In this document: positions 2,368-20,458 of the stretch, piece after piece
How positions within the stretch are numbered: the first letter of the stretch is position 1
Layout of the letters: every line of letters starts with the position of its first letter
DNA from: Methanofastidiosum sp.
Lineage (GTDB): Archaea; Methanobacteriota_B; Thermococci; Methanofastidiosales; Methanofastidiosaceae
Direction: 5' to 3'
Assembly (NCBI GenBank): GCA_020854815.1
Contig: JAHKLW010000025.1
Span: 1 to 51,986, forward strand
DNA: 51,986 nt
The notes under the pieces: model-generated
The model's database searches: none
The model's input: the letters and a program-made list of their open reading frames with translations, nothing else
What the model was told of the DNA's origin: nothing
Program-made: the position numbers and the translations under genes

Positions 2368-3801
2368 CTATTGAAACATATAAGAACATGATGGGTCTTC
2401 AGCTAACATACTATTTGATTTAATGTATGCTCTTGCTCGGCATCCGCCACATATTATTTTGTATTTGCAAGCTCCGCACTTGCCTTCCCAGTTATCCCTG
2501 TCTCGCATTTGAGTTAATGCAATGTTATCTTTCCATATTAAATCAAGATTTCCATCTAGGACATTGCCCAAATCCATTCTAAGAAAAGGGCAGGGCATGA
2601 TAGTTCCTTCACTAGATATTGCCAAAAGGAATCTTCCTGCAGAGCAGCCTCCGACATATTCTATGTATTTACCCCACCCAGGTTTATCAAATTTAGTAAA
2701 TCCAATCTGCATCAGTTCTTTATTATTTTGTTTTTCAAAATGGAGCTGAGAGATTTCTGGCGCTTGAAGTACTACAATTTTCCTAAAATATTGATCATAC
2801 TCTTTACGCTTATTTAGGATTTCAGTTAGCATCTTTTCTTTGTTTCCGTTGTCTATGGCCAGAGGATCATTTCCACTTCCGGAGGGGACATAATTTAAAA
2901 ATATGCATGTGTCCGCCCCAGCATTTTTTGCAAGTTCTAAAAAGCTTTGCACCTCGTCTTTCACTAAGCGAGTAAGCGTCAGAGATAAACCTACAGTAAG
3001 GTTTTGTTCTTTACAGAATTTAATGGCGTTGATAGATTTCTTAAAAGAATCCTTTTTCCTGTGGGCATCGTTTATTTCTTCTATAGAACTAAATACACTT
3101 ATTTCTACATAGCTTATTCCGGATTCTTTGATATTCTTAGCAATCTCCCTATCTAATTGCGTTCCATTTGTTGCAAGAGATGTTGCAAATCCCAGTTTAT
3201 TGGCATACTCTGCAATTGTAAAAAAGTCATCTCTGAGCAACGGCTCACCTCCTGAAAAGACAAGGGATAAAACGCCTGCCTCTTTGAGATTATCGAGTAT
3301 TTTGACCCATTTTTCTGTAGGCAGATCGGATTGATTTTCTTTTTTATTTGAATTAATATTAAATGTGTTAACATAACAATAGCTACAGTTTAGATTACAG
3401 TATCTTGTAAGTTCTAGAATAACAGAAACTGGTGAATTAAAGGTAAGGGGCTTCCTTAAGCCAAATGAGTTTATCCCTTCCAAAACAGAATGCACACCTT
3501 TAGTGTAAGAGGAAAGGGAATATCCTTCAGAAAATGTGGGAACTGTCTTTAGAGAGTTTCTGCTAACTGCAAATCCAAAAAGCCTTAAGAGGGGGATCCA
3601 GGGCTTATAAAAGTAGAATAAGATAGTGCACCTTTTACACATTATAGGTTCTTCTTCAGTTTCTATACTGTTTATTATTTGTTCCAGAACAGTCTTATTA
3701 CATTTAATACAATTAGTTGTTATTTCCGTGATGGAATATTTAATTAGGGGATTTATAGTTAGAGAGTACAATCCTATATCCATTAGTTTATTTCTTATCA
3801 T
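2368..3801 (-). CDS. Radical SAM/SPASM protein with N-terminal Cys4 motif
   Basis: 477 residues. The radical SAM core starts near residue 130 with Cys135-x3-Cys139-x2-Cys142 (CNLNCSYC), the 4Fe-4S/SAM site, followed by SGGEPLLR, the SAM-amino contact. The C-terminus carries a SPASM-type Cys-rich tail (CGACKYKIICGGCRARAY) for extra iron-sulfur clusters. SPASM proteins modify peptides or take part in heme or cofactor synthesis (AhbC/AhbD-like). An unusual ~120-residue N-terminal extension holds two CxxC pairs (Cys31/34 and Cys55/58), resembling a zinc ribbon. No obvious peptide substrate or heme genes flank it, so the substrate is open. The cupredoxin and lipoprotein genes beside it are on the same strand. 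Confidence 0.75.
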   Translation of the reverse strand: MIRNKLMDIGLYSLTINPLIKYSITEITTNCIKCNKTVLEQIINSIETEEEPIMCKRCTILFYFYKPWIPLLRLFGFAVSRNSLKTVPTFSEGYSLSSYTKGVHSVLEGINSFGLRKPLTFNSPVSVILELTRYCNLNCSYCYVNTFNINSNKKENQSDLPTEKWVKILDNLKEAGVLSLVFSGGEPLLRDDFFTIAEYANKLGFATSLATNGTQLDREIAKNIKESGISYVEISVFSSIEEINDAHRKKDSFKKSINAIKFCKEQNLTVGLSLTLTRLVKDEVQSFLELAKNAGADTCIFLNYVPSGSGNDPLAIDNGNKEKMLTEILNKRKEYDQYFRKIVVLQAPEISQLHFEKQNNKELMQIGFTKFDKPGWGKYIEYVGGCSAGRFLLAISSEGTIMPCPFLRMDLGNVLDGNLDLIWKDNIALTQMRDRDNWEGKCGACKYKIICGGCRARAYIKSNSMLAEDPSCSYMFQ

Positions 3802-3858
3802 CTCAATCTATCTAAGAATTTTTAGTATATATGCTTAATTAAAAATTAAAAAATAAAT

Positions 3859-5121
3859 TTATGGAACTACTAGGTCCATAATTATTGTATCAAATATTCC
3901 ATTTGGAGAATAAGCGATCAGAGATATCTTGTATGTGCCTGAAGGTACATTTGGCCCAACTGTAAAAGTAGTTTCATATGTGCCAATATTGTGTGCTTTA
4001 ATCTTTTGTAATTCTGGTGTTGTAATGGCTTCCATCCCTTCTGGCAATCCGACAAATTTAATGTAAACGTTGTTCTGGGTAAAGAATCCTCTGTTCTCAA
4101 CACCTATAGTTGTATTTTGAACTCCCGGAGCAATAGTAAATGAAGATATTATCTTTCCATCTTGTATAATTGCATCTCCGTTATTTAATGTAAAGCTTTC
4201 TATGTCAACTTTTGGATAGAGGATAGTTGCAGGAAGTGAAGGTTTTGGATTGCAGTTCCAGCAGCACTCTCTATAAAGAAATACATTTGTAGTGGGTTGA
4301 CCTTCCCAATCATCATAGGTAATATTGATACTTGAAGGGATTTTGTTATATGCATAGACTCCAGATATATTGAATGGCCCCGAGGTATTATTTGCAAGAA
4401 AATCATCAATTAGAGCTTTGTCCCAACCTGAATAGAAATATAACATGTATGTGTAGTAATTACTACTTTCCTCTTCCAGTGGATTTATTTCATTTCCGTT
4501 AAATATTAGGCTGGGAGATTCTGAAGTAATGACTAAAACATATCCTTCTTTTAGTTGGCATTTGCTATTGGGTGGAAGGTATTGATCTTTAAAGGAAGTT
4601 GGAATACATCCGTCCTCCAAGGGCTCTTCGTCATCCAGCCCCATATTTATATATTCAAAGAGATACAGTATGAACGATGAAAACGGAAAAGAGAATATAT
4701 TGGTACTAGAATCATTGCTATTAATAGTTTGTAATTCAGGACATTTTCGGGTATCTATACTTAAATCAGTATTATTAAGACGATAATACTGGGAAGGTGA
4801 GCATCTATTAATGTTATAAGAAAACGGTAGGGTTACTCTCTCACCTAAAAGCCCCGGTACCCATGCGCCTGCCAATCCCCTAAAAGTTTCTATCTTTGCA
4901 TCTGCTTCACATTTGCAGGTAGGGCACTCTTGCTGGCATTCAGCGAGGTATCCTTCATATATCTGATTTAGTCCACTTTGCACATCTTCATCCATTAGTA
5001 CGGGCTCCTGAATACAGCCGTAGAATTCATTATTATTGACAAAAACTTCAGAAGTCGTGCATCCGGATATAAAAGAAACTACAATTAACAAAGAAATTAA
5101 TATAGCAATTTTTCCTTTCAT
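3859..5121 (-). CDS. Secreted lipoprotein with C-terminal NEW3/CARDB-like beta domain
   Basis: 420 residues from the ATG at 5121, preferred over ATG 5133 because a GGTG ribosome site sits 6 nt before it. The signal peptide ends in a lipobox (FISGC), predicting a lipid-anchored surface protein. A Cys-rich segment (CQQECPTCKC) lies near residue 60. The middle is rich in Asn, Ser and Tyr and shows no family I recognise. The last ~110 residues look like a NEW3/CARDB immunoglobulin-like domain (GVENRGFFTQNNVYIKF, then VPSGTYKISLIAYSPNG), often used in archaeal surface proteins. It probably has a structural or binding role at the cell surface. Confidence 0.6.
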   Translation of the reverse strand: MKGKIAILISLLIVVSFISGCTTSEVFVNNNEFYGCIQEPVLMDEDVQSGLNQIYEGYLAECQQECPTCKCEADAKIETFRGLAGAWVPGLLGERVTLPFSYNINRCSPSQYYRLNNTDLSIDTRKCPELQTINSNDSSTNIFSFPFSSFILYLFEYINMGLDDEEPLEDGCIPTSFKDQYLPPNSKCQLKEGYVLVITSESPSLIFNGNEINPLEEESSNYYTYMLYFYSGWDKALIDDFLANNTSGPFNISGVYAYNKIPSSINITYDDWEGQPTTNVFLYRECCWNCNPKPSLPATILYPKVDIESFTLNNGDAIIQDGKIISSFTIAPGVQNTTIGVENRGFFTQNNVYIKFVGLPEGMEAITTPELQKIKAHNIGTYETTFTVGPNVPSGTYKISLIAYSPNGIFDTIIMDLVVP

Positions 5122-5190
5122 AATTGACACCATTATTACAAATTAATGATAGTTACCGATATTTAAATCTATCGGATTCTTTCAAATCGA

Positions 5191-6177
5191 CTAGAATCTC
5201 TTGAATACCCTGCAAATTGCCAAAGTAATCCACAAATCATTTTCATCCTCTTTTGGAAGCCCATAGTATACTTTCCATGTTCCATCAGACCTTTGGTTTT
5301 CAATTAAATAATCTAACCCCCTCTTGGTGTCATAGTCTTCTTTAGTAAATTTTAACTTGGAAAGAGAGTCAAGAGAAGAAACAATATCCGTCCACCAGAA
5401 AGGATAAGCTAGCTTTCCCCAGTATTCGGGTGAGCCGTGATCAGTATAGTTGTCTTTCTTAAAAAATTGGGATTTGAGAAAAGCGCCGGCTTTTCTTATT
5501 TCATTTGTTTTTCTGTAGTGCCCATGCGCTGCAAAAGCCCTTAACACTATGCCCGTCACTAGATGAGATGATGGCTTAGTTGGATCATTTTTGATTGGCT
5601 CAGTTTGCTCATTTTTATAGAACACTTCAGATATCTTGCATTTTGTAGTTCTAAATGGTATGGCCCAGCCTCCATCATTTTGCCTCATTGATAAAAGCCA
5701 ATTGATACCAAGATCAATTCTATCATCTTTTCCATAACCTGCTTTGATTAACATCTCCATTATGCCCGCAGAATAATTTGGAGTGTATTCATTACCATAT
5801 ATGCCTCTGAAATCTCCTTCTTCAGTTTGAAATGAAAATAGAAATTCACAAGCCTTTGAAATTGCATTATTTGTGTTGTTTAGGCCGTACTTTTCAATTA
5901 AAACTCTCATTGTTCGATAGGTCTCAAGTTGATTGTAATTCATCTGAGAGCGAATCTCTTCTTTACCCCCAGAATATTTCCACGACCCATCTTCTTGTTG
6001 TCTATTCAATAAAGATACGGCCCCTGGCAGTTCCCATAACGCTTCAATATTTCCAGGATCTTCATCCAATAACTCTAGCCTTGTGAAATAGTTTATCGCT
6101 TTATTATTTGAAAGAATTAAAGGAGTAACTGGGTTTAACCGTAGGAGTATTTTCCAATTATTCGAATCTTTTAACAT
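5191..6177 (-). CDS. Prenyltransferase/squalene-cyclase-like alpha/alpha-toroid protein
   Basis: 328 residues from ATG 6177; a longer TTG-started frame (6207) would overlap the upstream gene, while the ATG leaves an 8-nt gap. The protein is built of repeats of the terpenoid-cyclase toroid type: LLNRQQEDGSWKY near residue 60, FSFQTEEGDFRG near 130, LLSMRQNDGGWAIP near 170 and LIENQRSDGTWKVYY near 305. These resemble QW motifs (Q-x-x-DG-x-W). I see no DXDD motif of squalene-hopene cyclases, so cyclase activity cannot be claimed; a binding or unknown lyase role is equally possible. It follows a small membrane protein gene, probably in one transcript. Confidence 0.6.
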   Translation of the reverse strand: MLKDSNNWKILLRLNPVTPLILSNNKAINYFTRLELLDEDPGNIEALWELPGAVSLLNRQQEDGSWKYSGGKEEIRSQMNYNQLETYRTMRVLIEKYGLNNTNNAISKACEFLFSFQTEEGDFRGIYGNEYTPNYSAGIMEMLIKAGYGKDDRIDLGINWLLSMRQNDGGWAIPFRTTKCKISEVFYKNEQTEPIKNDPTKPSSHLVTGIVLRAFAAHGHYRKTNEIRKAGAFLKSQFFKKDNYTDHGSPEYWGKLAYPFWWTDIVSSLDSLSKLKFTKEDYDTKRGLDYLIENQRSDGTWKVYYGLPKEDENDLWITLAICRVFKRF

Positions 6178-6470: not shown

Positions 6471-6485
6471 AAGACTTTTATAATA
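6471..6485 (+). promoter_or_regulatory. Archaeal TATA promoter of the 6514-8191 ABC exporter
   Basis: An AAGACTTTTATAATAC box lies about 35 nt before the TTG start, followed by an AAAGGTG ribosome site at 6503-6508. Expected transcription start near 6500-6505. Confidence 0.4.
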
Positions 6486-6513
6486 CGAAATAATTTTCTA
6501 GAAAGGTGTTTCA

Positions 6514-7422
6514 TTGTCCATTGTCCTTGAAGCTAAAAATCTAGAAAAGAAATTTAGTGATGTTATAGCCGTCAATAAGATTAATTTCAAGGTAAAGGAA
6601 GGAGAAGTTTTTGGATTTTTGGGACCTAACGGCGCAGGTAAAACTACAACTATGAAGATGATTCAATGCGTATCGCCAAAAACTTCGGGAGAGCTAAAAG
6701 TATTTAATCTTGATGTTGATAAAAATCCCAGGAAAATCAAGAAACTCATGGGCGTTGTTCCTCAGATTGATAATCTTGATCCGGATTTCACTGTTATTGG
6801 GAATCTTTTGCAGTATTCGAGATATTTTGATATTCCTAAACAAGAGGCAATAAAGAGGGCAAAGGAGCTAATTGAATATATACAGATCACAGAAAAAAAG
6901 GACAGTTCAATTGAAAAGCTGTCCGGGGGGATGAAAAGAAGATTGGTCTTGGCAAGGGCTATGATTAATAATCCTAAACTTTTGATATTAGACGAACCTA
7001 CTACAGGGCTTGACCCTCAAGCAAGGCATCTAATCTGGGAGAAACTTAAAGACCTATCCTCAAAAGGAATTACTGTGATCATCACGACTCATTATATGGA
7101 AGAAGCTGCAAGGCTTTGCGATAGATTGGTAATAATGGACAATGGGCAAATACTTGTTGAAGGGGCCCCAAACGAACTCATTAAGAGATATGTTGGAGAT
7201 CATATTGTAGAAGCTGAGAATACTGCAGAGATAAAATCCTGTTTAGATAAAAACGATATAAAATATGATATTGGAAACGATAATGTTGAGATCTATACAG
7301 AAAATATCCAGAAAGTAACTAATCTCCTGTTAAATCAATGCACCCATAGTGGGGTCACAGCAAGACCTGCCACGCTTGAAGATGTGTTTTTGAAGCTTAC
7401 TGGGAGAAAACTAAGGGATTGA
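6514..7422 (+). CDS. ABC exporter ATP-binding subunit (DrrA/NodI type)
   Basis: 302 residues from a TTG start, supported by AAAGGTG 5 nt upstream. Walker A GPNGAGKTTT lies near residue 38, the signature LSGGMKRRL near 140, Walker B LLILDEPTTGLDP near 158 and the switch His in TTHY near 193. The C-terminal ~80 residues form the extra domain typical of DrrA/NodI proteins, ending DVFLKLTGRKLRD. The subunit powers an ABC-2 export system whose permease is the next gene (4-nt gap). Substrates in this family range from drugs to polysaccharides and lipids. A paralogue lies at 42389-43357 with the same C-terminal DVFLKLTGR signature. Confidence 0.88.
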   Translation: MSIVLEAKNLEKKFSDVIAVNKINFKVKEGEVFGFLGPNGAGKTTTMKMIQCVSPKTSGELKVFNLDVDKNPRKIKKLMGVVPQIDNLDPDFTVIGNLLQYSRYFDIPKQEAIKRAKELIEYIQITEKKDSSIEKLSGGMKRRLVLARAMINNPKLLILDEPTTGLDPQARHLIWEKLKDLSSKGITVIITTHYMEEAARLCDRLVIMDNGQILVEGAPNELIKRYVGDHIVEAENTAEIKSCLDKNDIKYDIGNDNVEIYTENIQKVTNLLLNQCTHSGVTARPATLEDVFLKLTGRKLRD

Positions 7423-7426
7423 TATT

Positions 7427-8191
7427 ATGGATCTAAGTTATCGGATAACTAAGGGTTGGCGAAGGAATTTTGTTACGTTTTTTAAAACATGGCGACTAAA
7501 TGTAATACCTCCATTTCTGGAGCCTTTGTTATACCTTCTAGCGTTGGGATTTGGTCTAGGGAGCTTTATAGATAATATTGAGGGTATATCTTATGTTAAA
7601 TTTATCGCTCCTGCTTTAGTTTCAATATCTGTAATGAATGCTTCTTTCTTTGAATGCACATACACGTCTTTTGTTAGAATGTACTATCTCAAAACATTTG
7701 ATGCGATGATAGCAACACCTGTATCTATAGAAGAAGTAATAGCTGGAGAACTATTATGGGGTGCTACAAGAAGTACAGTATATGCTACTTTTATGTTACC
7801 TGTTCTTTTGCTTTTTGGGGTGGTTGAGTTACCTTCGTCATTATTAATTATTCCATTCGCATTTTTGAGTGGGTTATTATTTGCATCTATCGCTATGTGT
7901 TTTACTGCTATCACCCCTAACATAGATACTCTTAACTATCCAATGTTTCTATTTATCACGCCAATGTTCCTGTTCAGTGGCACCTTCTTTCCCTTAACTT
8001 TATTGCCCGCCACAGTGCAATATGTGGCATTAGGAATCTTACCATTGGCACATGTGGTAATAGTAAATCGTGCAATAACATTGTCTGCAATTAATGTGGC
8101 GACTTTCCTTAGTATAATATGGATTTTAGTTGCAACTTCGGTATTTTTCTTTGTTTCAATAAAACTGATGAAAAGAAGATTAATCGTTTGA
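7427..8191 (+). CDS. ABC-2 type permease (DrrB/NodJ type)
   Basis: 254 residues with about six membrane helices and the ABC-2 membrane signature near residues 170-185 (FLFITPMFLFSGTFFPL). It is the membrane partner of the ATPase at 6514-7422, with the start 4 nt after that gene's stop. The sixth helix ends in a basic tail (KLMKRRLIV). The last 12 bases overlap the 3' end of the convergent trehalose-synthesis gene, an unusually tight tail-to-tail arrangement that leaves no room for a terminator between them. The exported substrate cannot be told from sequence. Confidence 0.85.
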   Translation: MDLSYRITKGWRRNFVTFFKTWRLNVIPPFLEPLLYLLALGFGLGSFIDNIEGISYVKFIAPALVSISVMNASFFECTYTSFVRMYYLKTFDAMIATPVSIEEVIAGELLWGATRSTVYATFMLPVLLLFGVVELPSSLLIIPFAFLSGLLFASIAMCFTAITPNIDTLNYPMFLFITPMFLFSGTFFPLTLLPATVQYVALGILPLAHVVIVNRAITLSAINVATFLSIIWILVATSVFFFVSIKLMKRRLIV

Positions 8192-10378
8192 AATTGGGGA
8201 ATTTAGTTCCTTTAGTAGAATTCTAACTTCTTTAGGAGATTTAACATTGTACTTAGCTTGAGAAGGCTCTATACCTACCTTTATAGAATATGCATTTTCT
8301 GGTACTACTTTAAAAATATCTTCATCTGTGAAATCATCACCAATAGCAAATATAAAATCCCATTTTTTCTTATTAAGCCAGTTGGAAGTTGCTTGCCCTT
8401 TATCTATGTTAATATTCTTAATTTCAATAATTTTATTACCTTCAAAAACTCCCACATTTAGATTAGATGTTAGGTGCATTAAAGCTGCTTTTAGTTCTCT
8501 GGATCTTATAGCTGCTAACTCGGGATCTACTTTTCTATAGTGCCAAACAAGGGAAAGTTCCTTATTTTCGATTAATGATCCGGGAGTTCTATCGACATAC
8601 AATTCCAATAGGGGTAAGATTTTTTCTTTCCAATCCTCTCCTTCTGGTTCAGTCAAAATCCAATTACTTCCTTTTTCTTTAATTTGTCCGCCGTGTTCGG
8701 CTATCAGACTTAGATTAATATCTTTAAACCAACTCTCAAGAGTATTTTTATCGCGCCCACTTATTATGACAACATTGTTTTTAGAATCATTTGAAAGATT
8801 TTTTAGAATAGAAATTAATTCATTATCGGGCGATGCCTTATGAGGTGCGTTTGAAAAAGGGACTAAAGTTCCATCATAATCGAGCAAGAACAAACGATTT
8901 TCACTGTTTTTGTATCTATCTATCATGCTCTGTTTAGTTGAAGTTAGAATAAGTTTTACTTCAAGCGTTCTCTGTTCATTTTTTACTTCTTCAAGTTTTA
9001 TCATAAAATCTTCTGCCCATCTTGTTACATTATATTTTTTTAATCTTTTTTGCATGATTCTATTTCTTTCAATCTGTTCATCAAGTGGCATTTCCAATGC
9101 TTTTCTAATCGCATCTGCAATTTCTTCTATATTATTTGGATTAACTATCAATGCTTCTCCAAGTTCAACTGAAGCACCGGCCATTTCGCTAAGAATAAGT
9201 ACACCTTTTCCATCACTTTTCGAAGCGATGAACTCCTTAGCAATTAAATTCATTCCATCTCTTATGGGGGTTACTAATCCCACATCAGAAAGATTGTACA
9301 ATGAAAGAAGAGAATAATACGAGATATACCGATATAGATATATAATTGGTGTCCAGTTTACTCTACCATATTTTCCGTTTATTTTTCCAACTCTTTCATC
9401 AATCTTGTTTTTAAGTTTTTCATAATGTTCAACTTTAGTCCTTGATGGAACTGTTACAAGTATTAATTCAACCTTCCCCCTATACATAGGATATTTATCA
9501 AGAAAATAGTCATACGCCTCTAGTCTTTGAAGAATTCCTTTTGTATAATCAAGTCTATCAATTGAGAAAATAATTTTATATTCTCCAATTTTTTCACGTA
9601 TTTCATTTATTTTTTTCTGAACATTTGCATCTTTTACCATATTTGAGAATTTATCATACTCTATTCCCATAGGAAATGCATCTGCTTCAAAAAAACTTTT
9701 TCCTGTGAAGACCTTACCTGCAACATTTTCAAACCCTAATACCCTTAATACTCCAGATAAGAAATGTCTTGAATAATCAGATATATGAAACCCAATCAAA
9801 TCAGCTTCAAGAAGTCCCTCAAGAATCTCTCTTCTCCAAGGTAACAGCCTATATATCTCAAAAGATGGGAATGGAATATGTAAGAAGAATCCTATTGAAG
9901 TTTGAGGCAATTTTTCTCTAATTAGTTTTGGAAGTAACATTAGGTGGTAGTCATGAAACCAAATTGTATCTTCAGTCTTTGCAATTTCACATACGGCTTC
10001 ACAGAATTTCTCGTTTACGCTTTTATAAGCCTCCCAATTCTTTTTTACATATTCTGTATACTGTGTGAATCCATGAAAAAGTGGCCATAAAGTACTATTA
10101 CAAAATCCGTTATAATATTGTTCAATGTCTTTCTTTGATAAGAAAACAGGGTAATTTTGATATTCTTCTAATAATTTTGACTTAATATATTTCTTTTCAT
10201 CGATGTTTATTTTATCTGAAGAAAGGCCACACCAACCTATCCAAGCGCTATCATAGTTTGTATAGAAAGATGCAAGTCCTGTAGCAAGACCACCCACGCT
10301 GTGCTTAAAATTTAGATCTCCATTATTTTTTTCTATAGTTATAGGCAGTCTGTTTGAAACTATTAATAATCTTTTCAT
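8180..10378 (-). CDS. otsAB: Bifunctional trehalose-6-phosphate synthase/phosphatase (OtsA-OtsB fusion)
   Basis: 732 residues. Residues 1 to about 470 are a GT20 trehalose-6-phosphate synthase: SNRLPI at the start, SVGGLATGL near 27, FHDYHLMLLP near 145 and HIPFPSFEIYRLLPWR near 165, all known substrate-binding stretches. From about residue 495 a HAD-type trehalose phosphatase follows: LLDYDGTLVPF (nucleophile Asp), IISGRD and GDDFTDEDIF (metal site). The fused enzyme should make trehalose from NDP-glucose plus glucose-6-phosphate and then remove the phosphate. It is divergent from glucokinase (133-nt spacer) and sits in a block that can supply both substrates. Confidence 0.93.
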   Translation of the reverse strand: MKRLLIVSNRLPITIEKNNGDLNFKHSVGGLATGLASFYTNYDSAWIGWCGLSSDKINIDEKKYIKSKLLEEYQNYPVFLSKKDIEQYYNGFCNSTLWPLFHGFTQYTEYVKKNWEAYKSVNEKFCEAVCEIAKTEDTIWFHDYHLMLLPKLIREKLPQTSIGFFLHIPFPSFEIYRLLPWRREILEGLLEADLIGFHISDYSRHFLSGVLRVLGFENVAGKVFTGKSFFEADAFPMGIEYDKFSNMVKDANVQKKINEIREKIGEYKIIFSIDRLDYTKGILQRLEAYDYFLDKYPMYRGKVELILVTVPSRTKVEHYEKLKNKIDERVGKINGKYGRVNWTPIIYLYRYISYYSLLSLYNLSDVGLVTPIRDGMNLIAKEFIASKSDGKGVLILSEMAGASVELGEALIVNPNNIEEIADAIRKALEMPLDEQIERNRIMQKRLKKYNVTRWAEDFMIKLEEVKNEQRTLEVKLILTSTKQSMIDRYKNSENRLFLLDYDGTLVPFSNAPHKASPDNELISILKNLSNDSKNNVVIISGRDKNTLESWFKDINLSLIAEHGGQIKEKGSNWILTEPEGEDWKEKILPLLELYVDRTPGSLIENKELSLVWHYRKVDPELAAIRSRELKAALMHLTSNLNVGVFEGNKIIEIKNINIDKGQATSNWLNKKKWDFIFAIGDDFTDEDIFKVVPENAYSIKVGIEPSQAKYNVKSPKEVRILLKELNSPISND

Positions 10379-10510: not shown

Positions 10511-11587
10511 TTGAAAAATAAATTTGGAATAGAGTATCTTGTCAATAATAATAAAGCCTATTCACGTTATGTTCTTGCTGCAGATGTTGGGGGGACTAAT
10601 ACTACAATAGGAGTTTGTGGGATATGTGGACAAATTCCTTCTTTAGTGTTTTATAAACGTTATAAGAGTCAAAATATAAACTCCATAGTACCACCTCTTA
10701 GGGAGATCTTAGAATATACTAAAAATAACCACAATATAGATTTACAAGTTGCATGTTTTGGTTGTGCCGGAGTGCAACTTAAGAAAGACATTGTAAAGCT
10801 TACTAATTTGAAATGGGGTATTGACCTAAATGAAGTTATTCAGAAAACAGAAATTTCTAAAGCATTTATAATTAATGATTTTCAAGCAATTGGTTATGGG
10901 ATTAATTTTCTCAAAGATGAGGATTCTAAGGATATTTTTATTGTAAGATCTACTAAGCATGACCAAAACAAAGCTAAAACTAAGGTCATTATTGGTGCAG
11001 GAACAGGCCTCGGAAAGGCAATTTTAGCTCATGACAATTATAATGAAGTATACACACCTTTGCCTAGTGAAGGGGGCCATACAGATTTTCCCATACATAA
11101 TGAATTTGAGTTTAGATTAGTTAGGTATATCAAAGAAAAAAAGAATCTTAAAAGTTCAGTAAGATACGAGGATATATTATCCGGTACTGGTATAGAGTTG
11201 ATTTATTTATTCTTGAAAGCATCTGGAGAATATTCAAAAACACATTATGACAAAATAATAGAAAAATCCAAAGATAAAGCTTCGTTGATATCTAAATACA
11301 AGGATATTGATGAAAAATCTAAAGAAGCGTTTAGATTATTTACTAGATTTTATGGAAGATGTGCAAAAAACTTTGCCTTAGACACTCTCTCATTGGGAGG
11401 ATTATATATTGCCGGAGGAATTGCGAGTAAAAATAAAGAGATTTTTAAAACTGAAGATTTTTTAAAAGAATTTGAAAAATGTTCCACGCAAAAAAAAGTT
11501 CTTGAGTCAATTCCAATATATGTAATACTTAACTATGATGTAAGTTTATACGGGGCAGCGTACTATGCAATGATAAATTCCATATGA
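10511..11587 (+). CDS. glk: Glucokinase, bacterial Glk family
   Basis: 358 residues from a TTG start, backed by a GAGGTGA ribosome site just upstream. An ATP-binding ADVGGTNTTIGV stretch lies near residue 25, INDFQAIGYG near 118, GAGTGLGKA near 158, SEGGHTDF near 188 and SGTGIELIYL near 222. This pattern fits the Glk family (PF02685), known mainly from bacteria; many archaea instead use ADP-dependent or ROK glucokinases. It phosphorylates glucose to G6P, feeding both the glycolytic genes that follow on the same strand and the divergent OtsAB. Transfer from bacteria is my inference. Confidence 0.87.
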   Translation: MKNKFGIEYLVNNNKAYSRYVLAADVGGTNTTIGVCGICGQIPSLVFYKRYKSQNINSIVPPLREILEYTKNNHNIDLQVACFGCAGVQLKKDIVKLTNLKWGIDLNEVIQKTEISKAFIINDFQAIGYGINFLKDEDSKDIFIVRSTKHDQNKAKTKVIIGAGTGLGKAILAHDNYNEVYTPLPSEGGHTDFPIHNEFEFRLVRYIKEKKNLKSSVRYEDILSGTGIELIYLFLKASGEYSKTHYDKIIEKSKDKASLISKYKDIDEKSKEAFRLFTRFYGRCAKNFALDTLSLGGLYIAGGIASKNKEIFKTEDFLKEFEKCSTQKKVLESIPIYVILNYDVSLYGAAYYAMINSI

Positions 11588-11742: not shown

Positions 11743-12633
11743 ATGGATATTTTAAATAATTTGGACTTGGCACTTGGTAAAAGGATTAGGTTGTATAGAT
11801 TGATGTACACATATGGATTGAGAAATGGAAAATTAAATCTATTGCCCATTGATCATGGTTTAGAGCATGGTCCACGTGACTTCTTTTCAAATCCAGATAG
11901 CTTAGATCCAGAATACATTCTAAATTTAGCAATAAGTCTTGGAGTATCTGGCATTGTCATGCATATAGGGCTTGCAGAAAAATATATGAAAAAATACGCG
12001 GGGAATATCCCTCTTGTCCTAAAATTAAATGGGAAAACTTCAATACCTGAAGATGATGCCCCAATCTCACCATTGACGGCAAGTGTAGAGGATGCAGTTA
12101 GGCTAGGTGCAGATGCTGTTGGATATACTTTATATGTTGGAACTCCCAATCAAAAAGAAGATATTGATCAATTTAGAATAGTAAAAAAAGAAGCAGATAG
12201 ATATGGAATGCCAATAATAGTCTGGTCCTATCCTAGAGGAAAGGCTATAGAAGAAAAAGGTGGAAAAGAATCTTTATTTGCTGTTGATTATGCTGCAAGA
12301 GTCGGATGTGAATTGGGTGCCGATATAATAAAAATTAACTTTCCAGTTATTGATGAATCAAAGATGGATTTGTATCCAGAGCCATATAATAAATTGTATT
12401 TGTCGCAAGGAGAGTGTATAAAAAAAGTAGTTAAATCCGCCGGGAATACAATGGTTCTTGTATCGGGGGGGTCGAAGATTGGCGATCAAGATATTTTAAA
12501 CAAAGTCAAATATTCAATGGAAGCTGGCGCTACAGGTATAATATTTGGAAGAAATCTTTGGCAAAGAAGTAGAGAGGATTCTTGGAAAATAAATGAAAAA
12601 ATTAAGAATATAATGAAGGAGTACCCGGGGTGA
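11743..12633 (+). CDS. fba: Archaeal class I fructose-1,6-bisphosphate aldolase (DhnA type)
   Basis: 296 residues with the ATG placed 6 nt after a strong GGAGGG site. LLPIDHGLEHGPRDFF near residue 29 is the signature opening of archaeal class I aldolases. The Schiff-base lysine is most likely the one in GADIIKINFPV near 195, and the phosphate-binding VSGGSKIGD and GATGIIFGRN stretches lie near 244 and 265. The enzyme splits fructose-1,6-bisphosphate into dihydroxyacetone phosphate and glyceraldehyde-3-phosphate. It opens a tight three-gene operon with a PfkB kinase (4-nt gap) and phosphoglucose isomerase (8-nt gap). Confidence 0.9.
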   Translation: MDILNNLDLALGKRIRLYRLMYTYGLRNGKLNLLPIDHGLEHGPRDFFSNPDSLDPEYILNLAISLGVSGIVMHIGLAEKYMKKYAGNIPLVLKLNGKTSIPEDDAPISPLTASVEDAVRLGADAVGYTLYVGTPNQKEDIDQFRIVKKEADRYGMPIIVWSYPRGKAIEEKGGKESLFAVDYAARVGCELGADIIKINFPVIDESKMDLYPEPYNKLYLSQGECIKKVVKSAGNTMVLVSGGSKIGDQDILNKVKYSMEAGATGIIFGRNLWQRSREDSWKINEKIKNIMKEYPG

Positions 12634-12637
12634 TATT

Positions 12638-13606
12638 ATGTATGATGTCATTACTATGGGTAGTTGTACTATAGATCTATTTGTAGACACAGGAACTGAT
12701 CTATTTAGACTAACAAAAGATGGACAATTATATGTGCCATATGGGAGCAAGATTCTTGTTAAATCAATGAATTTTGAAATTGGAGGAGGCGGTACAAATA
12801 CTGCTGGAGCATTTGCAACATTTGGATTGAAAGTTGCATTATTGGGGAAAATAGGGGATGATCATAATGCCGATAAAATATTGAAATATCTAAATTCCAT
12901 TCAATGCGATACGTCTTTATTGATAAAAGAAGAAGGTTCTTCAGATTATTCTGTAATTCTGGATGCAAAAGGTAGGGATCGAACTATTCTTACTCTAAAA
13001 GATAAAAATGATAAGCTTAGATTTAATGAAATCAACTTATCAAGACTAAAAACCAAATGGTTTTATCTTTGTACAATGCTTGAAGAATCCCTAGACACCC
13101 AAATAAAAATATCGAAATATGCAAATGAAAATAATATTGGAATAATGTATAATCCAAGTTCTTATTTAATTAGGAAAGGAATACAAAAGTTTGAAGAAAT
13201 ACTTAATAATTCTACCATAATTTGTGTAAATTTTGAAGAAGCTAAGATGATTACTGGCCATACTGATCCAAGACTTATGTCAGATAATTTACTTAGTTAT
13301 GGGCCCGAAATAGTAATAATAACTGATGGCAATCATGGAGCTTATGCTTTCACAAAAAAAGAAGGATATATGATCATACCAAACGAGGTAAATGTAAAAG
13401 AAACTACTGGGGCGGGAGATAGTTTTGGCGCAGGATTTCTTACAGGTTTTATGAAAACTAAAAATATCAAAATTGCCTTAGAATATGGGGCCACTGAATC
13501 TGAATCAGTGATTCAATATTTGGGTGCAAAAAATAAATTTTTGAATATTGAAGAGATTGACTCCAAAATTAGTGAATACCCTCATAAAATTATTAAAATA
13601 AAATAA
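12638..13606 (+). CDS. PfkB-family sugar kinase, probable phosphofructokinase
   Basis: 322 residues of the ribokinase/PfkB fold. The substrate-side motif GGGGTNTAGAFATFGLKV lies near residue 48 and the catalytic anion-hole motif ETTGAGDSFGAGFLTGF near 252, with the base Asp in GAGD. A GGGGTGAT site overlaps the aldolase stop and lies 4 nt before the ATG. Family members phosphorylate fructose-6-phosphate, ribose, nucleosides or other sugars. Its place between aldolase and phosphoglucose isomerase argues for fructose-6-phosphate, but this is inferred from context only; adenosine or ribose kinase activity is possible. Confidence 0.78.
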   Translation: MYDVITMGSCTIDLFVDTGTDLFRLTKDGQLYVPYGSKILVKSMNFEIGGGGTNTAGAFATFGLKVALLGKIGDDHNADKILKYLNSIQCDTSLLIKEEGSSDYSVILDAKGRDRTILTLKDKNDKLRFNEINLSRLKTKWFYLCTMLEESLDTQIKISKYANENNIGIMYNPSSYLIRKGIQKFEEILNNSTIICVNFEEAKMITGHTDPRLMSDNLLSYGPEIVIITDGNHGAYAFTKKEGYMIIPNEVNVKETTGAGDSFGAGFLTGFMKTKNIKIALEYGATESESVIQYLGAKNKFLNIEEIDSKISEYPHKIIKIK

Positions 13607-13614
13607 GTGTTAAA

Positions 13615-14943
13615 ATGAATGAATTGAAATTTGATTTTAAAGATAGTTTGGTATTACCAATAGATATAAATCTGGTAGAAAAAAATCTGACAAATGAGAT
13701 AGATATTTTAAACAATGTAGTTAAAAACAAAAATTATGAAGATTATAGATCTTTCATAAATCTTCCTTATGACGAAGAATCCCTTAAGATTATAAAAAAA
13801 ATGGTATATGAGAAAAAAAAATTAAATCCCAAATATTTAGTTGTTATAGGAATTGGAGGAAGTAATCTTGGAACAATCGCCATTCAAGAAGCTATACTTG
13901 GAAAACTATACAATGAATTAAATCCAGATGTTAAGATATTATATGCAGATACAGTTGATTCAGATATTTTGAGTAGTATTATACAAGTTATAGAGACAGT
14001 ATTACAAAATGGAGAAAACATAATTATTAATGTAATCAGTAAATCCGGTAGTACTACAGAAACTATTGCAAATTCTGAGATAATTATAAATATTCTTAAA
14101 AAATATAAAAAAAATTACTATGACTATGTAGTTGTTACTTCTGACAAAGATTCTAAGTTATGGGAATTAGCTTTAGAAGAAAATTTTACCTTATTAGAAA
14201 TACCAAGAAAAGTTGTAGGTAGATATTCAGTTTTTTCTGCTGTAGGATTATTTCCTCTTGGATTAATAGGGGTTAATATAGATCTATTGCTTAACGGGGC
14301 AAAGGATATAATTCAAAAAAGTATAAACAAGAATTTAGAATTAAATCCTGTGGCAAAAAGCGCTTCTTTGATTTATATCCACTATAAAAGAGGAAGAAAC
14401 ATACATAACCTGTTTTTATTTAGTCCGGGAATGGAATCAATAGGTATGTGGTACAAACAATTAATGGCAGAAAGCCTTGGGAAGGAATATAATCTCAAAA
14501 GAGAGCATGTTTTTACAGGTATAACCCCAATAGTATCTATAGGATCAACAGACCTACATTCAATGACACAATTGTATTTAGGGGGGCCAGATGATAAATT
14601 TACTACTTTTGTTAAAATAAAGCATAATAGAACTATTTTGAGAATCCCAAAAGAAAGAATTTATTCTAAATTAGTTAAAGGAATACAAGAAAAAAAGTTA
14701 CAGACTTTGATGAATGCGGTATATAAAGGTGTTATCAAAACATTCAGAAATCGCAAAAGACCATTCATGGAAGTTCGAATAAATAACAAATCTGAATATG
14801 CAATTGGACAATTTCTCCAATATAAGATGATTGAAATGGTATATTTAGGATATTTAATGAATGTTAATCCATTCAATCAGCCAAACGTTGAGGAATACAA
14901 AGCTGAAACTAGAAAGATTTTGGAAAGAAAAAAGGAGGATTGA
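13615..14943 (+). CDS. pgi: Glucose-6-phosphate isomerase
   Basis: 442 residues of the PGI superfamily (SIS fold), about the size of Bacillus-type PGI and unrelated to the cupin PGI of Thermococcales. VIGIGGSNLGTIAIQEAI near residue 79 and NVISKSGSTTETIANSE near 141 are the two sugar-phosphate binding loops; a QLMAESLGKE stretch near 282 carries the catalytic Glu. It interconverts G6P and F6P. It is the last intact gene of the operon; the decayed ferredoxin begins immediately after its stop, and the final codons contain the GGAGG that could have served that lost gene. Confidence 0.92.
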   Translation: MNELKFDFKDSLVLPIDINLVEKNLTNEIDILNNVVKNKNYEDYRSFINLPYDEESLKIIKKMVYEKKKLNPKYLVVIGIGGSNLGTIAIQEAILGKLYNELNPDVKILYADTVDSDILSSIIQVIETVLQNGENIIINVISKSGSTTETIANSEIIINILKKYKKNYYDYVVVTSDKDSKLWELALEENFTLLEIPRKVVGRYSVFSAVGLFPLGLIGVNIDLLLNGAKDIIQKSINKNLELNPVAKSASLIYIHYKRGRNIHNLFLFSPGMESIGMWYKQLMAESLGKEYNLKREHVFTGITPIVSIGSTDLHSMTQLYLGGPDDKFTTFVKIKHNRTILRIPKERIYSKLVKGIQEKKLQTLMNAVYKGVIKTFRNRKRPFMEVRINNKSEYAIGQFLQYKMIEMVYLGYLMNVNPFNQPNVEEYKAETRKILERKKED

Positions 14944-14946
14944 TAG

Positions 14947-15196
14947 ATTCAAACAGTTACAAATCAAAGATATCGAGAAATCAAAAACCTGAAATGTATT
15001 GGGTGTAGTCTTTGCATGTTTGCATGTGCTAGAACGAATTTGAGATAGACTCGTCAGCTATTTTTAACTATAAGCTTAAGCGCATTCGAGAGGGGCGCCA
15101 CGATTATTTTTTTGTAGAGCGTGTAAAAATCTGCCTTGCACTGAGGTATGCCCCACAGCATTTATAAATATAGCATCTTTAAGAAACCCATACTAA
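14947..15196 (+). pseudogene. Decayed AOR-type 4Fe-4S ferredoxin
   Basis: Reading three frames in turn recovers one protein. 14947-15033 gives NLKCIGCSLCMFACART. A shift then gives NEFEIDSSAIFNYKLKRI to about 15112. After a second shift in a T7 run (15107-15113) comes CRACKNLPCTEVCPTAFI, ending at a stop at 15196. The CxxCxxC...C pattern, the SAI segment and the CRACxxxPC...CP pattern match the ferredoxins that accompany aldehyde:ferredoxin oxidoreductases. There is no ATG, GTG or TTG start (ATT stands where the gene should begin) and the C-terminal second half is missing. A GGAGG inside the end of pgi is correctly placed, so this was once the next gene of the glycolytic operon. Confidence 0.72.
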
Positions 15197-15233
15197 AATG
15201 CAGATTATTTCTTTAAATTTGAGGATATCCCAC

Positions 15234-15358
15234 GATTATGAATTGATATACCCTCCAGGTTCTATTTTAGGAATCTCTCAGCTGAAGGAATTTTAAACCT
15301 GATTCACAAAATTGAATCTTATGCCATAGATCATTATTCAAAAATAACAAATTTTTAA
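15234..15358 (+). pseudogene. Possible remnant of an aldehyde:ferredoxin oxidoreductase family gene
   Basis: Two adjacent frames read DYELIYPPGSILGIS (from 15234) and then AEGILNLIHKIESYAID (from 15281, stop at 15358). Together they resemble the AOR segment 'YE.iy.lGS.lGI.d.e.il.li...e.yglD.iS'. The remnant is short and split by a frameshift, but it stands right after a ferredoxin of the AOR-associated type, where an AOR-family gene would be expected. AOR-family enzymes include glyceraldehyde-3-phosphate:ferredoxin oxidoreductase. The identification rests on remembered family patterns and needs an alignment. Confidence 0.42.
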
Positions 15359-15367
15359 TATTTTATT

Positions 15368-16360
15368 TTACGATATAATCTTTGAGTACGCCCCAACTGC
15401 TGAATTATTTATTTTTACATTAGACAATTTACACTTTGAATCAACAATACTTTTGTTAATAACTGATTTTTCTATACTAGTATTATCAAATATAACTGAA
15501 TTCGTAATAGAAGATTCATCTATTTCGCATCCATTTCCGATATATGTAAAAGGCCCTATCACTGATTTGCTTTTAATTATAGATTTATCCCCTATTACTA
15601 CTGGCTCAATAATCTTGCAACTATGTGATATTTCACAATCTCCTATATATGTTTTCATGTATGTTTTAATTGAATCTAAGTAAGAATCCGGAGACCCGAT
15701 ATCGTGCCACGAACCCGCTGAGAAAGAATATCCGAAAACATTAGTTTTCCCCGACAAAAAACTTACAAAATCGCCTAAATTATCCACTTTTTTATTTTCT
15801 TTTACATAGTTTAATAGAATTCTGACTGAATCCTTAGGCAAGATGTACATCGCTATCCCCGCCATTGTAGTGGGTGGATTTGGAGGTTTTTCATGAAATC
15901 TTATTATTCTATCGCCTTCTAACTCCGCGATGCCATATCTTCTTGCAAGGTCCATACTTTTAATATCATATAGGGCGGTAATAGGTGCATTGATATTATT
16001 ATAATACTTTAAGAAATCTGTTAGTTCAAAAGTGAACAAATTATCTCCGGCAATGATAAAAAGTTCATCGTCTATCTCTTCAGCTAACTGTGCTAAGGCC
16101 TTAACAGCCCCTAATTTTTCCTCTTCTTTAGTTGTCTTTTCTATTGCTAATTCAACGTCCTTATCTTTTATCCATTCTTTGAAATCTTCTTCAAAAAATT
16201 CGTTTGTTGAAATGATAATAGGAATGTTCAACTTTTTCACTTTTTCGTAGACAAAATCTAATATGTTTTGTTTTCCTATTGGAAGAAATACTTTTGACCT
16301 TTTCCTCGTAATTGGCCAAAGCCTTGTTGCATACCCTCCTGCTAATATTACAATTTTCAT
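15368..16360 (-). CDS. Sugar-1-phosphate nucleotidyltransferase with C-terminal left-handed beta-helix
   Basis: 330 residues. The N-terminal nucleotidyltransferase domain opens with LAGGYATRLWPITRKRSKVF, the nucleotide-binding loop, and has IIAGDNLF near residue 102 (metal Asp) and FHEKPPNPP near 153. The last ~100 residues are hexapeptide-like repeats (VIGDKSIIKSKSVIGPFTYI) forming a beta-helix. It joins a sugar-1-phosphate to a nucleotide. Glucose-1-phosphate is the likely substrate because phosphohexomutase, TreT and OtsA lie close by and need NDP-glucose; mannose-1-phosphate is the main alternative. It is a single minus-strand gene, convergent with the glycolytic operon. Confidence 0.83.
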   Translation of the reverse strand: MKIVILAGGYATRLWPITRKRSKVFLPIGKQNILDFVYEKVKKLNIPIIISTNEFFEEDFKEWIKDKDVELAIEKTTKEEEKLGAVKALAQLAEEIDDELFIIAGDNLFTFELTDFLKYYNNINAPITALYDIKSMDLARRYGIAELEGDRIIRFHEKPPNPPTTMAGIAMYILPKDSVRILLNYVKENKKVDNLGDFVSFLSGKTNVFGYSFSAGSWHDIGSPDSYLDSIKTYMKTYIGDCEISHSCKIIEPVVIGDKSIIKSKSVIGPFTYIGNGCEIDESSITNSVIFDNTSIEKSVINKSIVDSKCKLSNVKINNSAVGAYSKIIS

Positions 16361-17830: not shown

Positions 17831-19153
17831 TTAGAGTTCATACCAAGGATGAAAACTGACAATACTCTCATTCGGAATATGTGGCATGGTCTTAATTGTA
17901 AGAATTGAATCATACACCCTGCCAGGCATCATAAATCTTTTCATTACAAATTCTTTTGCATTTTTTCCGATAATCTCCGCCTTGTCAGGATTTCGTAATA
18001 GCCAAACTATCTTATCTGCACGTTTTTTGGCACCGTGAATTAGAAATCCGTTTTTATCAGGGATTATTTGAAGTGTCAATCCTCCAACTGGCCTAGCGAC
18101 CACAGGTTTACCTTTCCATAATGCTTCAGTTACAGTGAGCCCAAATCCTTCTTTTATTGAATTTTGCACAACTACTGTTGCTGCTCTTTGCATTGCGTTT
18201 ACTTCAACATCTGAGAGATTTAATAATATATATACGTCCTTAATGCTTTTTATTTCTTCCTTAACATCTTCTAGAATAGTAACTCCTTCTGGGTCATCAC
18301 TTGCCATGCTCCCCACTAAGACTAACTGACAGTCTTCTTTCTGCTTTACTGATTTATAAATTGATATAAGGCCCACAGGATCTTTCCACTTGTCAAATCT
18401 ACTTACCTGTAATATTATTGGCTTGTTTTTATCAATATGATATTTATCAAGGATTTCTGAGATTAACTCTTCTTTCAATTCTTTATTTTTATCAGATAGG
18501 GGATCAATATAAGGGGGTATTATAAACTTTGGTAGATCCCAAGAATATACAATATACTGAACCTTAGAAAAAATAGCCGCATCATAATAGCTTGCTAGAT
18601 CAGTGATTAATTTTCGTAAATTTTTATTGTCCGCAAAAACATCTACATCCAAATCAATATGACATCTCCACAACCATTTCTGATTATCCTTTTTCAGGTA
18701 CTTTGCCAAGCCAAGAGGTTGAGGATCGTGGATAGTAATTATATCATATTCTTCGTCGATTATATTACCATCTACATTTTCTTCAGTGCAAGAAGTATAG
18801 ATATCTTCCATATTTTTCGTGAAATCATGTTTTTTTCCTTGAAGTAAATTATGGATTGACTTAGTAACGTTAAAAAAATCATCGTTTCCTTTCATAACCT
18901 TCCAGTCATCCTCTATTCCAAATTGATTTAAGAAAGGAACAGAAGATTTCAACATCTCGGCTACTCCGCCCCCATATGAAGTAGAATTTAGTTCTAGTAA
19001 CTTAACTCCCTCAAATGATTCTGCCAATTCCTTTAATTTTTCAATAGGTTCCTTCCCAACTACTTTTTCATATTCTTTAAGTTTAGGAACTTTTAATGAG
19101 TTAATTTTTTTTCTTTCACTGTAAATATTTCCATTATTTAGATTTTCAGACAT
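17831..19153 (-). CDS. treT: Trehalose synthase TreT-type glycosyltransferase (GT4)
   Basis: 440 residues of GT-B fold. The N-terminal NSTSYGGGVAEMLKSSVPFL (near residue 56) and HNLLQG (near 97) are hallmarks of the TreT/trehalose phosphorylase group, as is the DPQPLGL stretch near 145. The GT4 donor-site E-x7-E appears in KEGFGLTVTEALWKGKPVVA near 336. TreT makes trehalose directly from NDP-glucose and glucose, reversibly; trehalose phosphorylase is the main alternative. A phosphohexomutase ends 15 nt upstream on the same strand. Together with OtsAB this gives two trehalose routes within 11 kb. Confidence 0.82.
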   Translation of the reverse strand: MSENLNNGNIYSERKKINSLKVPKLKEYEKVVGKEPIEKLKELAESFEGVKLLELNSTSYGGGVAEMLKSSVPFLNQFGIEDDWKVMKGNDDFFNVTKSIHNLLQGKKHDFTKNMEDIYTSCTEENVDGNIIDEEYDIITIHDPQPLGLAKYLKKDNQKWLWRCHIDLDVDVFADNKNLRKLITDLASYYDAAIFSKVQYIVYSWDLPKFIIPPYIDPLSDKNKELKEELISEILDKYHIDKNKPIILQVSRFDKWKDPVGLISIYKSVKQKEDCQLVLVGSMASDDPEGVTILEDVKEEIKSIKDVYILLNLSDVEVNAMQRAATVVVQNSIKEGFGLTVTEALWKGKPVVARPVGGLTLQIIPDKNGFLIHGAKKRADKIVWLLRNPDKAEIIGKNAKEFVMKRFMMPGRVYDSILTIKTMPHIPNESIVSFHPWYEL

Positions 19154-19168
19154 TTTTATGCACCTGTG

Positions 19169-20458
19169 TCAACTATCCATAATTTTTTTAATATAGTTTA
19201 TTTTTTCCATTAGAGTGACTTCATTATTTGATTCTATATTGACTCTTAGAACTGGTTCAGTATTCGAAGGTCTTACATTAATCCACCAGTCCATATAATA
19301 AATAGAAATACCGTCAATTTCTTCTACCTGGCCTTCATCAAATAGATCTAAAATTGATTGCATTTTGTCTTCTTTGTTCTCAACTTTAAAATTTAATTCA
19401 CCACTTTGGTAATATTTGGCATATTTTTTTGCAATTTCACTCAAAGTATTATTCTCAATACTTTTTAGAATGTATAGAAGGGCCAAAAGAGGTGCTTCAA
19501 ATCCTCCTGCTTCTTTGAAATAAAAATGATTAGACAGTTCTCCTGCAAATATCACATCTTTTTCCTTCATTAATTTTTTAATAAAGTAATGTCCCACTCT
19601 AGATTTAATAGGTAATCCACCATTAGCTATAATTGTTTCAGGAACAATTTTGCTACAACGCAAATCATAAATTATATTTCCCTTTAATTCCGAGAGTAAT
19701 TGCTCCGAAATTATAGCTGTTAAGATATCTCCTTTTATTGGTTGACCCTTTTCATCAATTATTCCTATCCTATCCCCATCTCCATCAAAGATTATTCCAA
19801 TATCTGCTTTTTCTTCTAATACTCTATGGATTATATTCTCCAGACAATCAAGAGTCATTGTATTGGGCATATGATCTGGAAAATTACCATCAGGGGTATA
19901 AGAAAGATAAGTTTTATTTTTAAAAATGGCATCAAGTATTTTTCTTTCAACAACCGTTGCACCATTTGAAAAATCCACGACAATTTTTGGAGTTTTGATA
20001 TTTTCAAACTTATTTAAATAATAATCTATATAGTTGTTTTCAAGATTTATTTTATAATCTTCTGCTTTTTCTAATATTTTGGGGAGTTCATATTCTTTAA
20101 ACATAGGTTTAATCTGATTAATTGGTGAAAGCGGTAATCCTTCGATATCACATGCTTTAAAACCGCCATATTCTTTTGGATTGTGTGAGGCCGTTGCAAG
20201 GACGCCAACATCAAAATTATTCTTAGTGATAAAATACATAAAAGGTGTTGATATCATTCCAGCATAACTAATCTTTGTACCTTCATCGACAACTCCCGTT
20301 ATAAAAGGGTCTTTAAATTTTTCAGAGCTTATTCTAGAATCGATTCCAAAGAGAATTTTTTTGTAGGATTTCCCAAAGGTTCTACCAAGACTATATGCAA
20401 ATTTCTCATCGATTTCTTTTGGATAAATCCCTCTTATATCATATAATTTGAAAATCAT
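19169..20458 (-). CDS. Phosphohexomutase (phosphoglucomutase/phosphomannomutase)
   Basis: 429 residues of the alpha-D-phosphohexomutase family, somewhat short because loops are trimmed. The phospho-serine loop TASHNPKEYGGFK lies near residue 88, the metal loop DGDGDRIGII near 225, the sugar-specificity GELSNHFYF near 316 and the phosphate-binding RPSNTEPVLRV near 396. It interconverts glucose-6-P and glucose-1-P, or the mannose forms; GELSNH is typical of archaeal PGM/PMM enzymes with both activities. It precedes the TreT-like gene by 15 nt, and the MFS transporter lies 31 nt upstream, so the three are probably one minus-strand transcript. Confidence 0.88.
   Translation of the reverse strand: MIFKLYDIRGIYPKEIDEKFAYSLGRTFGKSYKKILFGIDSRISSEKFKDPFITGVVDEGTKISYAGMISTPFMYFITKNNFDVGVLATASHNPKEYGGFKACDIEGLPLSPINQIKPMFKEYELPKILEKAEDYKINLENNYIDYYLNKFENIKTPKIVVDFSNGATVVERKILDAIFKNKTYLSYTPDGNFPDHMPNTMTLDCLENIIHRVLEEKADIGIIFDGDGDRIGIIDEKGQPIKGDILTAIISEQLLSELKGNIIYDLRCSKIVPETIIANGGLPIKSRVGHYFIKKLMKEKDVIFAGELSNHFYFKEAGGFEAPLLALLYILKSIENNTLSEIAKKYAKYYQSGELNFKVENKEDKMQSILDLFDEGQVEEIDGISIYYMDWWINVRPSNTEPVLRVNIESNNEVTLMEKINYIKKIMDS

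Follow-up and report, generated by a model that had tools for sequence, protein, structure and literature searches.

A degraded ferredoxin-AOR gene pair at the end of a glycolytic gene run in Methanofastidiosum

What occupies the 424 nt between the phosphoglucose isomerase gene (pgi) and its convergent right-hand neighbour in a Methanofastidiosum genome, and which function did its lineage lose there? The window, by which we mean the whole 51,986-nt stretch of DNA that was analysed, comes from a draft genome (G000; 1.95 Mb, 102 contigs, 96% complete) that holds one copy of the gap DNA. A six-frame translation of 14944-15367 gave KCIGCSLCMFACART in the +1 frame, NEFEIDSSAI in the +0 frame and CRACKNLPCTEVCPTAFINIASLRNPY followed by a stop in the +2 frame, so that the motifs quoted in an earlier sequence-only reading are all present, in three different frames. 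That reading had also placed the remnant at the end of a glycolytic gene run, and the run is indeed there, as glk-fba-pfkB-pgi, with both flanks of the gap intact and collinear with a sister species, G002:

10511-11587, + strand: glucokinase (glk), first gene of the sugar run (PF02685, E 1.3e-75)
11743-12633, + strand: class I fructose-bisphosphate aldolase-like protein of the DeoC/LacD family (PF01791, E 3e-43; NF006704, E 2e-66, below the cut-off of that model)
12638-13606, + strand: pfkB-family sugar kinase (PF00294, E 2.5e-38; 91% amino acid identity to G002)
13615-14943, + strand: pgi, intact (PF00342, E 5e-22)
15368-16360, - strand: rmlA-like nucleotidyltransferase, the convergent right flank (PF00483, E 2e-40)

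At the same locus, G002 and a further relative, G003, carry an intact ferredoxin gene (16 cysteines, four-cluster type) and an intact AOR gene of 577 codons, the undamaged pair for which the earlier reading had advised looking in related genomes. In G002 (locus L007), an open ferredoxin frame that runs to 3201 comes after pgi, then the AOR at 3198-4931 (577 aa) and the convergent rmlA-like gene; the order is the same in G003, where it is split over two overlapping contigs and where a reported stop is the natural gene end. The pair stands directly after pfkB and pgi in both genomes and, judging from this arrangement, apparently shares one operon with them. The rmlA-like flank is the same gene in G002 and G003 and recurs, more distantly, near the AOR of G010, a member of a sister family. 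As for pgi, it was found in three of the 61 genomes searched, namely the window's, G002 (91% amino acid identity) and G003 (64%), all belonging to one genus of ten genomes.

The gap aligns to this intact pair in two parts: from 14944 to ~15150 it matches the G002 ferredoxin DNA at 172 of 196 positions (88%), and 15149-15331 matches the middle of the G002 AOR gene at 139 of 181 (77%). When the intact proteins were searched against the 424 nt by tblastn, the ferredoxin scored 55.1 bits and the AOR 56.2 bits, while the best of 1000 shuffled controls reached 23.1 and 22.3 bits, respectively. The AOR remnant was also recovered in a search of the genus itself (E 6e-11), with TGA and TAA stops inside. 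The proposal of a dead AOR-type ferredoxin after pgi was thus correct, and the AOR-like fragment behind it is a real AOR remnant. The earlier claim of at least two frameshifts also stands, and there are more lesions than it had counted:

14944-15153, + strand: remnant of the 5' half of a WorS-like ferredoxin gene (alignment to the intact G002 ferredoxin)
~14978-14991, + strand: 14-nt insertion in the ferredoxin remnant, relative to G002
~15039/15040, + strand: 16-nt deletion in the ferredoxin remnant, relative to G002
~15061-15065, + strand: one additional T in the ferredoxin remnant, relative to G002
15107-15113, + strand: one additional T in a T7 run (T6 in G002)
15147-15157, + strand: junction of a ~1.06 kb deletion that joins the ferredoxin to mid-AOR, at a TG(T/C)CC microhomology
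15149-15331, + strand: AOR (WorL) remnant covering codons ~287-348, interrupted by a premature TAA and by small indels
15326-15333, + strand: junction left by a ~0.66 kb deletion, with TAGAT as the microhomology (L007 ~4237-4241 joined to ~4897-4902)
15329-15359, + strand: AOR 3' tail remnant up to its TAA (short, weak alignment to L007 4898-4931, in the expected place)

The larger deletion has its ends at ~2992-2996 and ~4056-4060 of L007, so that the window enters the AOR at codon ~287, and both large junctions lie at microhomologies of about five bases. Subtracting ~1.06 kb and ~0.66 kb from the 2145 nt of the intact region leaves ~420 nt, which accounts for the whole length of the gap. A 2-nt deletion is also present, and the premature TAA is a stop of the substitution type. 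Of the four second-shell residues of the AOR, T239, Y431 and H449 have lost their codons, as have, at a minimum, Cys284 and Cys489. In the window lineage, the pair was destroyed by two microhomology-flanked deletions together with small frameshifts. Besides, the inserted 14 nt (CAAAAACCTGAAAT) closely resemble the 16 nt that are deleted ~60 nt downstream relative to G002, which suggests a template switch or the relocation of a short segment within the dying gene.

Could the disruptions be sequencing or assembly errors in a pair that is in fact intact? Two of the small indels do fall in T runs and the assembly, in 102 contigs, is a draft. Read errors, however, do not typically remove ~1.7 kb in two deletions, insert 14 nt, delete 16 nt and create a stop by substitution; the genes on either side of the gap are undamaged and keep the G002 order, and no second copy exists in the genome. 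We regard such errors as a highly improbable source of the damage. Nor do we give any appreciable weight to the idea that the 424 nt now encode a new short peptide or RNA built from the old genes: the gap retains a codon-position bias, which is explained by constraint before death, its frames are broken several times and it has no Rfam match. Searches of the genome and of its own genus revealed no second ferredoxin-AOR copy elsewhere in G000, and a DNA search of plasmids gave no match. Because an intact orthologue occupies the same locus in sister species, because the window carries disabling lesions and because no second copy was found, we conclude with high confidence that 14944-15367 is a pseudogene, formed from a ferredoxin gene and an AOR gene that lay side by side. 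Its loss is an ordinary evolutionary event.

One sign on which the sequence-only reading had relied has to be abandoned. It took the missing start codon as damage, but in G002 and G010, where the ferredoxin is intact, an ATG, GTG or TTG is likewise missing nearby (L007 2780-2815 and L142 5709-5760, respectively), and we rejected this feature as a mark of death. In G010, a stop in the same frame restricts the candidate starts ahead of the first cluster motif to codons such as ATA. Such ferredoxins could possibly start at ATA or ATT or be translated by coupling to the upstream gene.

How old is the loss? Compared with G002, the gap differs at 14/122 first, 8/123 second and 44/125 third codon positions, so that 44 of 66 differences lie at third positions. 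Living genes have a similar excess: divergence from G002 at positions 1, 2 and 3 is 0.061, 0.029 and 0.161 in pgi and 0.103, 0.056 and 0.40 in the MFS gene. Had most of the divergence come after death, the three positions should be nearly equal; the codon pattern therefore places the death of the pair late in the time since the split from G002, a recent loss, as the earlier reading had proposed. We offer no clock, since third-position divergence is very uneven among neighbouring genes. It rises from 0.16 in pgi (13615-14943) to 0.59 in the adjacent rmlA (15368-16360), a jump that suggests recombination or transfer near the pseudogene.

We then asked what the intact enzyme is. The G002 AOR contains both AFOR_N (PF02730, E 1e-64) and AFOR_C (PF01314, E 6e-52), and its AlphaFold model (pLDDT 77) matches 1aor, 1b25, 9mqx, 8c0z, 6x1o and 4z3w at TM 0.74-0.84, structures that include AOR, FOR, WOR5 and BamB. 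In a tree of 31 proteins, which carries a long-branch warning and is used here only for the separateness of the clade, the AORs of Archaeoglobi and of the G002/G003 type formed one clade with 100/100 support, apart from GAPOR, from Thermococcales proteins of the AOR, FOR and WOR types and from the two other, intact AORs of the window genome; it gave no direction for gene transfer between Archaeoglobi and the window's genus. Exactly one clade member is present in 40 of 59 Archaeoglobi genomes, and within the window's phylum the clade AOR is limited to G002, G003 and two genomes of the sister family, G010 and G013 (47%). A scan of named genomes with the intact AOR, which reaches close relatives only, found it in seven genomes of Archaeoglobales (61-66%). 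Four Fe-S cysteines and the second-shell Thr/Glu/Tyr/His, with residue correspondence taken from the 1aor alignment, are invariant in all 39 clade members compared, and the partner ferredoxins (40 of 40) have at least 16 cysteines and are encoded immediately upstream of the AOR. No conserved third subunit, be it a flavin WorN or one of the bifurcating WorABC kind, accompanies the pair: in G002 and G003 the next gene after the AOR is the convergent rmlA-like one, and other loci are likewise without such a subunit. A Class II WOR consists of WorL and WorS with four clusters (PMC13328260), and by that scheme the intact pair is, on its sequence features, a Class II WOR with predicted tungsten and predicted ferredoxin use. 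The literature that we searched contained no characterised member of this clade and no described role for it.

The earlier reading had linked the remnant to GAPOR, the archaeal enzyme for GAP, and this link was not upheld. GAPOR does belong to the same AOR superfamily, and 18 of 20 sampled genomes of a family of the same class (read as Thermococcaceae) score above its cut-off. However, the G002 AOR reaches only 32.4 bits against the GAPOR_Arch model (NF040818), whose cut-off is 1300, and the intact clade sits on a separate branch with 100/100 support. In addition, Y431 and H449, which lie in a region absent from GAPOR (PMC12096430), are invariant in 39 of 39 clade members, and GAPOR is monomeric whereas the intact enzyme has a ferredoxin subunit. 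Model score and tree together rule out an origin from canonical archaeal GAPOR at the family level, and we hold that origin to be very improbable. Full GAPOR matches were found neither in the window's genus nor in Archaeoglobi. We also considered the clade as the source of the gene-less GAPOR activity of Archaeoglobus 7324 and rejected it, that activity having come from contaminating Thermococcus (PMC8146568).

What, then, would the pair have oxidised? It is likely a two-subunit aldehyde oxidase that passes electrons to ferredoxin, and gene context hints at the substrate. In G010 the pair lies next to an FBP aldolase/phosphatase gene; among 38 Archaeoglobi loci, phosphoribulokinase (PRK) stands beside it in seven and glycerol-3-phosphate dehydrogenase (G3PDH) nearby in 12, and most of the remainder adjoin a DHH-family protein or unknowns, so that about half have non-sugar neighbours. 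Archaeoglobus has genes of a RuBisCO/phosphoribulokinase pathway (PMC5241800), and RuBisCO was present in all seven Archaeoglobales genomes tested. Since the sugar settings of the pair (the pgi operon, FBP aldolase/phosphatase, PRK and G3PDH) involve triose phosphates or adjoin them, a triose-phosphate substrate is plausible. The likeness to bacterial GOR, which also has two subunits, and the gene context make a GAP role possible; the most likely single reaction, to which we accord slightly less than an even chance, would be GAP to 3-phosphoglycerate with reduction of ferredoxin, bypassing GAPDH and PGK. Class II WORs can use other aldehydes or sulfonates. The intact pair could accordingly oxidise another aldehyde, in detoxification or derived from sugars or amino acids, its place after pgi being incidental, and we judge this evenly poised between true and false: broad substrate ranges are common in AORs, roughly one in two Archaeoglobi homologues lies away from sugar-metabolism genes and general AORs have the same four active-site residues (PMC12096430), but genes of sugar-phosphate metabolism turn up beside the pair repeatedly and in several combinations (pgi, FBP aldolase/phosphatase, PRK, G3PDH). 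In addition, the aldolase and the isomerase would fit gluconeogenesis equally well, where a GAP-oxidising enzyme would be futile. The odds are about even that the window lineage lost a GAP oxidation step. The broadest reading strikes us as rather unlikely: it would make the clade a third independent GAP:ferredoxin oxidoreductase, next to archaeal GAPOR and bacterial GOR, at work both in a glycolytic operon and in a pathway tied to phosphoribulokinase, and would have the window caught just after its loss.

The earlier reading had remarked that the operon stops just before triose oxidation, but in the genome as a whole the pathway does not simply end at this point. GAPDH (type II, phosphorylating) is present in nine of ten genomes of the genus, G000 included, and G000, G002 and G003 encode a divergent PGK-like protein of 453 aa (Pfam PGK 55 bits, cut-off 27). 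A genome search of these three with PF00162 had given nothing, yet the PGK-like protein of a relative used as query found a homologue of 78-94% identity in each, and we rejected the idea that operon-bearing genomes have no PGK. Since GAPDH and the PGK-like gene are kept, loss of the ferredoxin-AOR pair need not break glycolysis; these two genes are seen in the genome, and their products probably compensate for the lost pair. The PGK-like family (L154 1495-2856; contig C94 in G000) belongs to the window's order and occurs in 15 of 31 relatives searched and in none of the sampled Thermococcaceae-like genomes; it scores 50-58 bits against Pfam PGK and has no NCBIfam name and no PDB relative by sequence. 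Its AlphaFold model (pLDDT 36) is too low in confidence to interpret. Separately, G000 has two different RuBisCO large-subunit-like genes (C26 ~4707-5516 and C79 ~6479-7450), one of which G002 shares, while G003 apparently has the other type.

The wider window encodes OtsAB, a TreT-like trehalose synthase, phosphoglucomutase, a transporter and triosephosphate isomerase. The sugar run is flanked by the OtsAB fusion, the TreT-like synthase and phosphoglucomutase (8180-10378, 17831-19153 and 19169-20458), two routes of trehalose synthesis. Given these trehalose genes, the locus probably stores and mobilises trehalose, and the lost enzyme would have turned trehalose-derived sugar into reduced ferredoxin. 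The intact pair may be an unrecognised ferredoxin-linked enzyme of glycolysis. If it oxidises GAP, a probable methanogen would gain low-potential ferredoxin from internal sugar, and a clade for which we found no described role would gain a function. In any case, the pseudogene points to a widespread, uncharacterised clade of tungsten-type enzymes, for which the glycolytic operon beside the remnant gives the clearest link to a pathway, and sister species with and without the enzyme, their sugar locus otherwise intact, offer a natural test.

Among known systems, archaeal GAPOR (PfGAPOR, clade 23) shares with the intact pair the superfamily and the reaction proposed here, GAP to 3PG with ferredoxin, and differs in being a monomer on a distant branch without the Tyr/His region. 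Pyrococcus AOR and FOR (1aor, 1b25) and the AorAB-type enzymes (8c0z, 9mqx) have in common with the intact AOR the fold, the Fe-S cysteines and the second-shell residues, and the Fe-S subunits of 8c0z and 9mqx are homologous to the ferredoxin of the pair; however, identity in the structure alignment is ~22-26% and the clade differs. The single-copy ferredoxin-AOR pairs of Archaeoglobi (L053-L059, L100-L130) have ~57-70% AOR identity and the ferredoxin-AOR order in essentially all; in place of a pgi operon, they adjoin phosphoribulokinase, glycerol-3-phosphate dehydrogenase, a DHH protein or unknowns. The Class II WORs, such as CbGOR and PfASOR/WOR5, share with the intact pair an AOR-fold large subunit and an adjacent small subunit with four [4Fe-4S] clusters; here, WorL has 577 aa, and the pair is found in Archaeoglobi and in the window's order. 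Among these WORs, the CbGOR enzyme from Caldicellulosiruptor bescii (clade 20) is a two-subunit bacterial GAP oxidase (PMC13328260, PMC12096430), and the bacterial GOR keeps all four second-shell residues where archaeal GAPOR keeps two (PMC12096430). CbGOR, which works in glycolysis, resembles the pair in two features, its two-subunit layout and the Thr/Glu/Tyr/His of its second shell.
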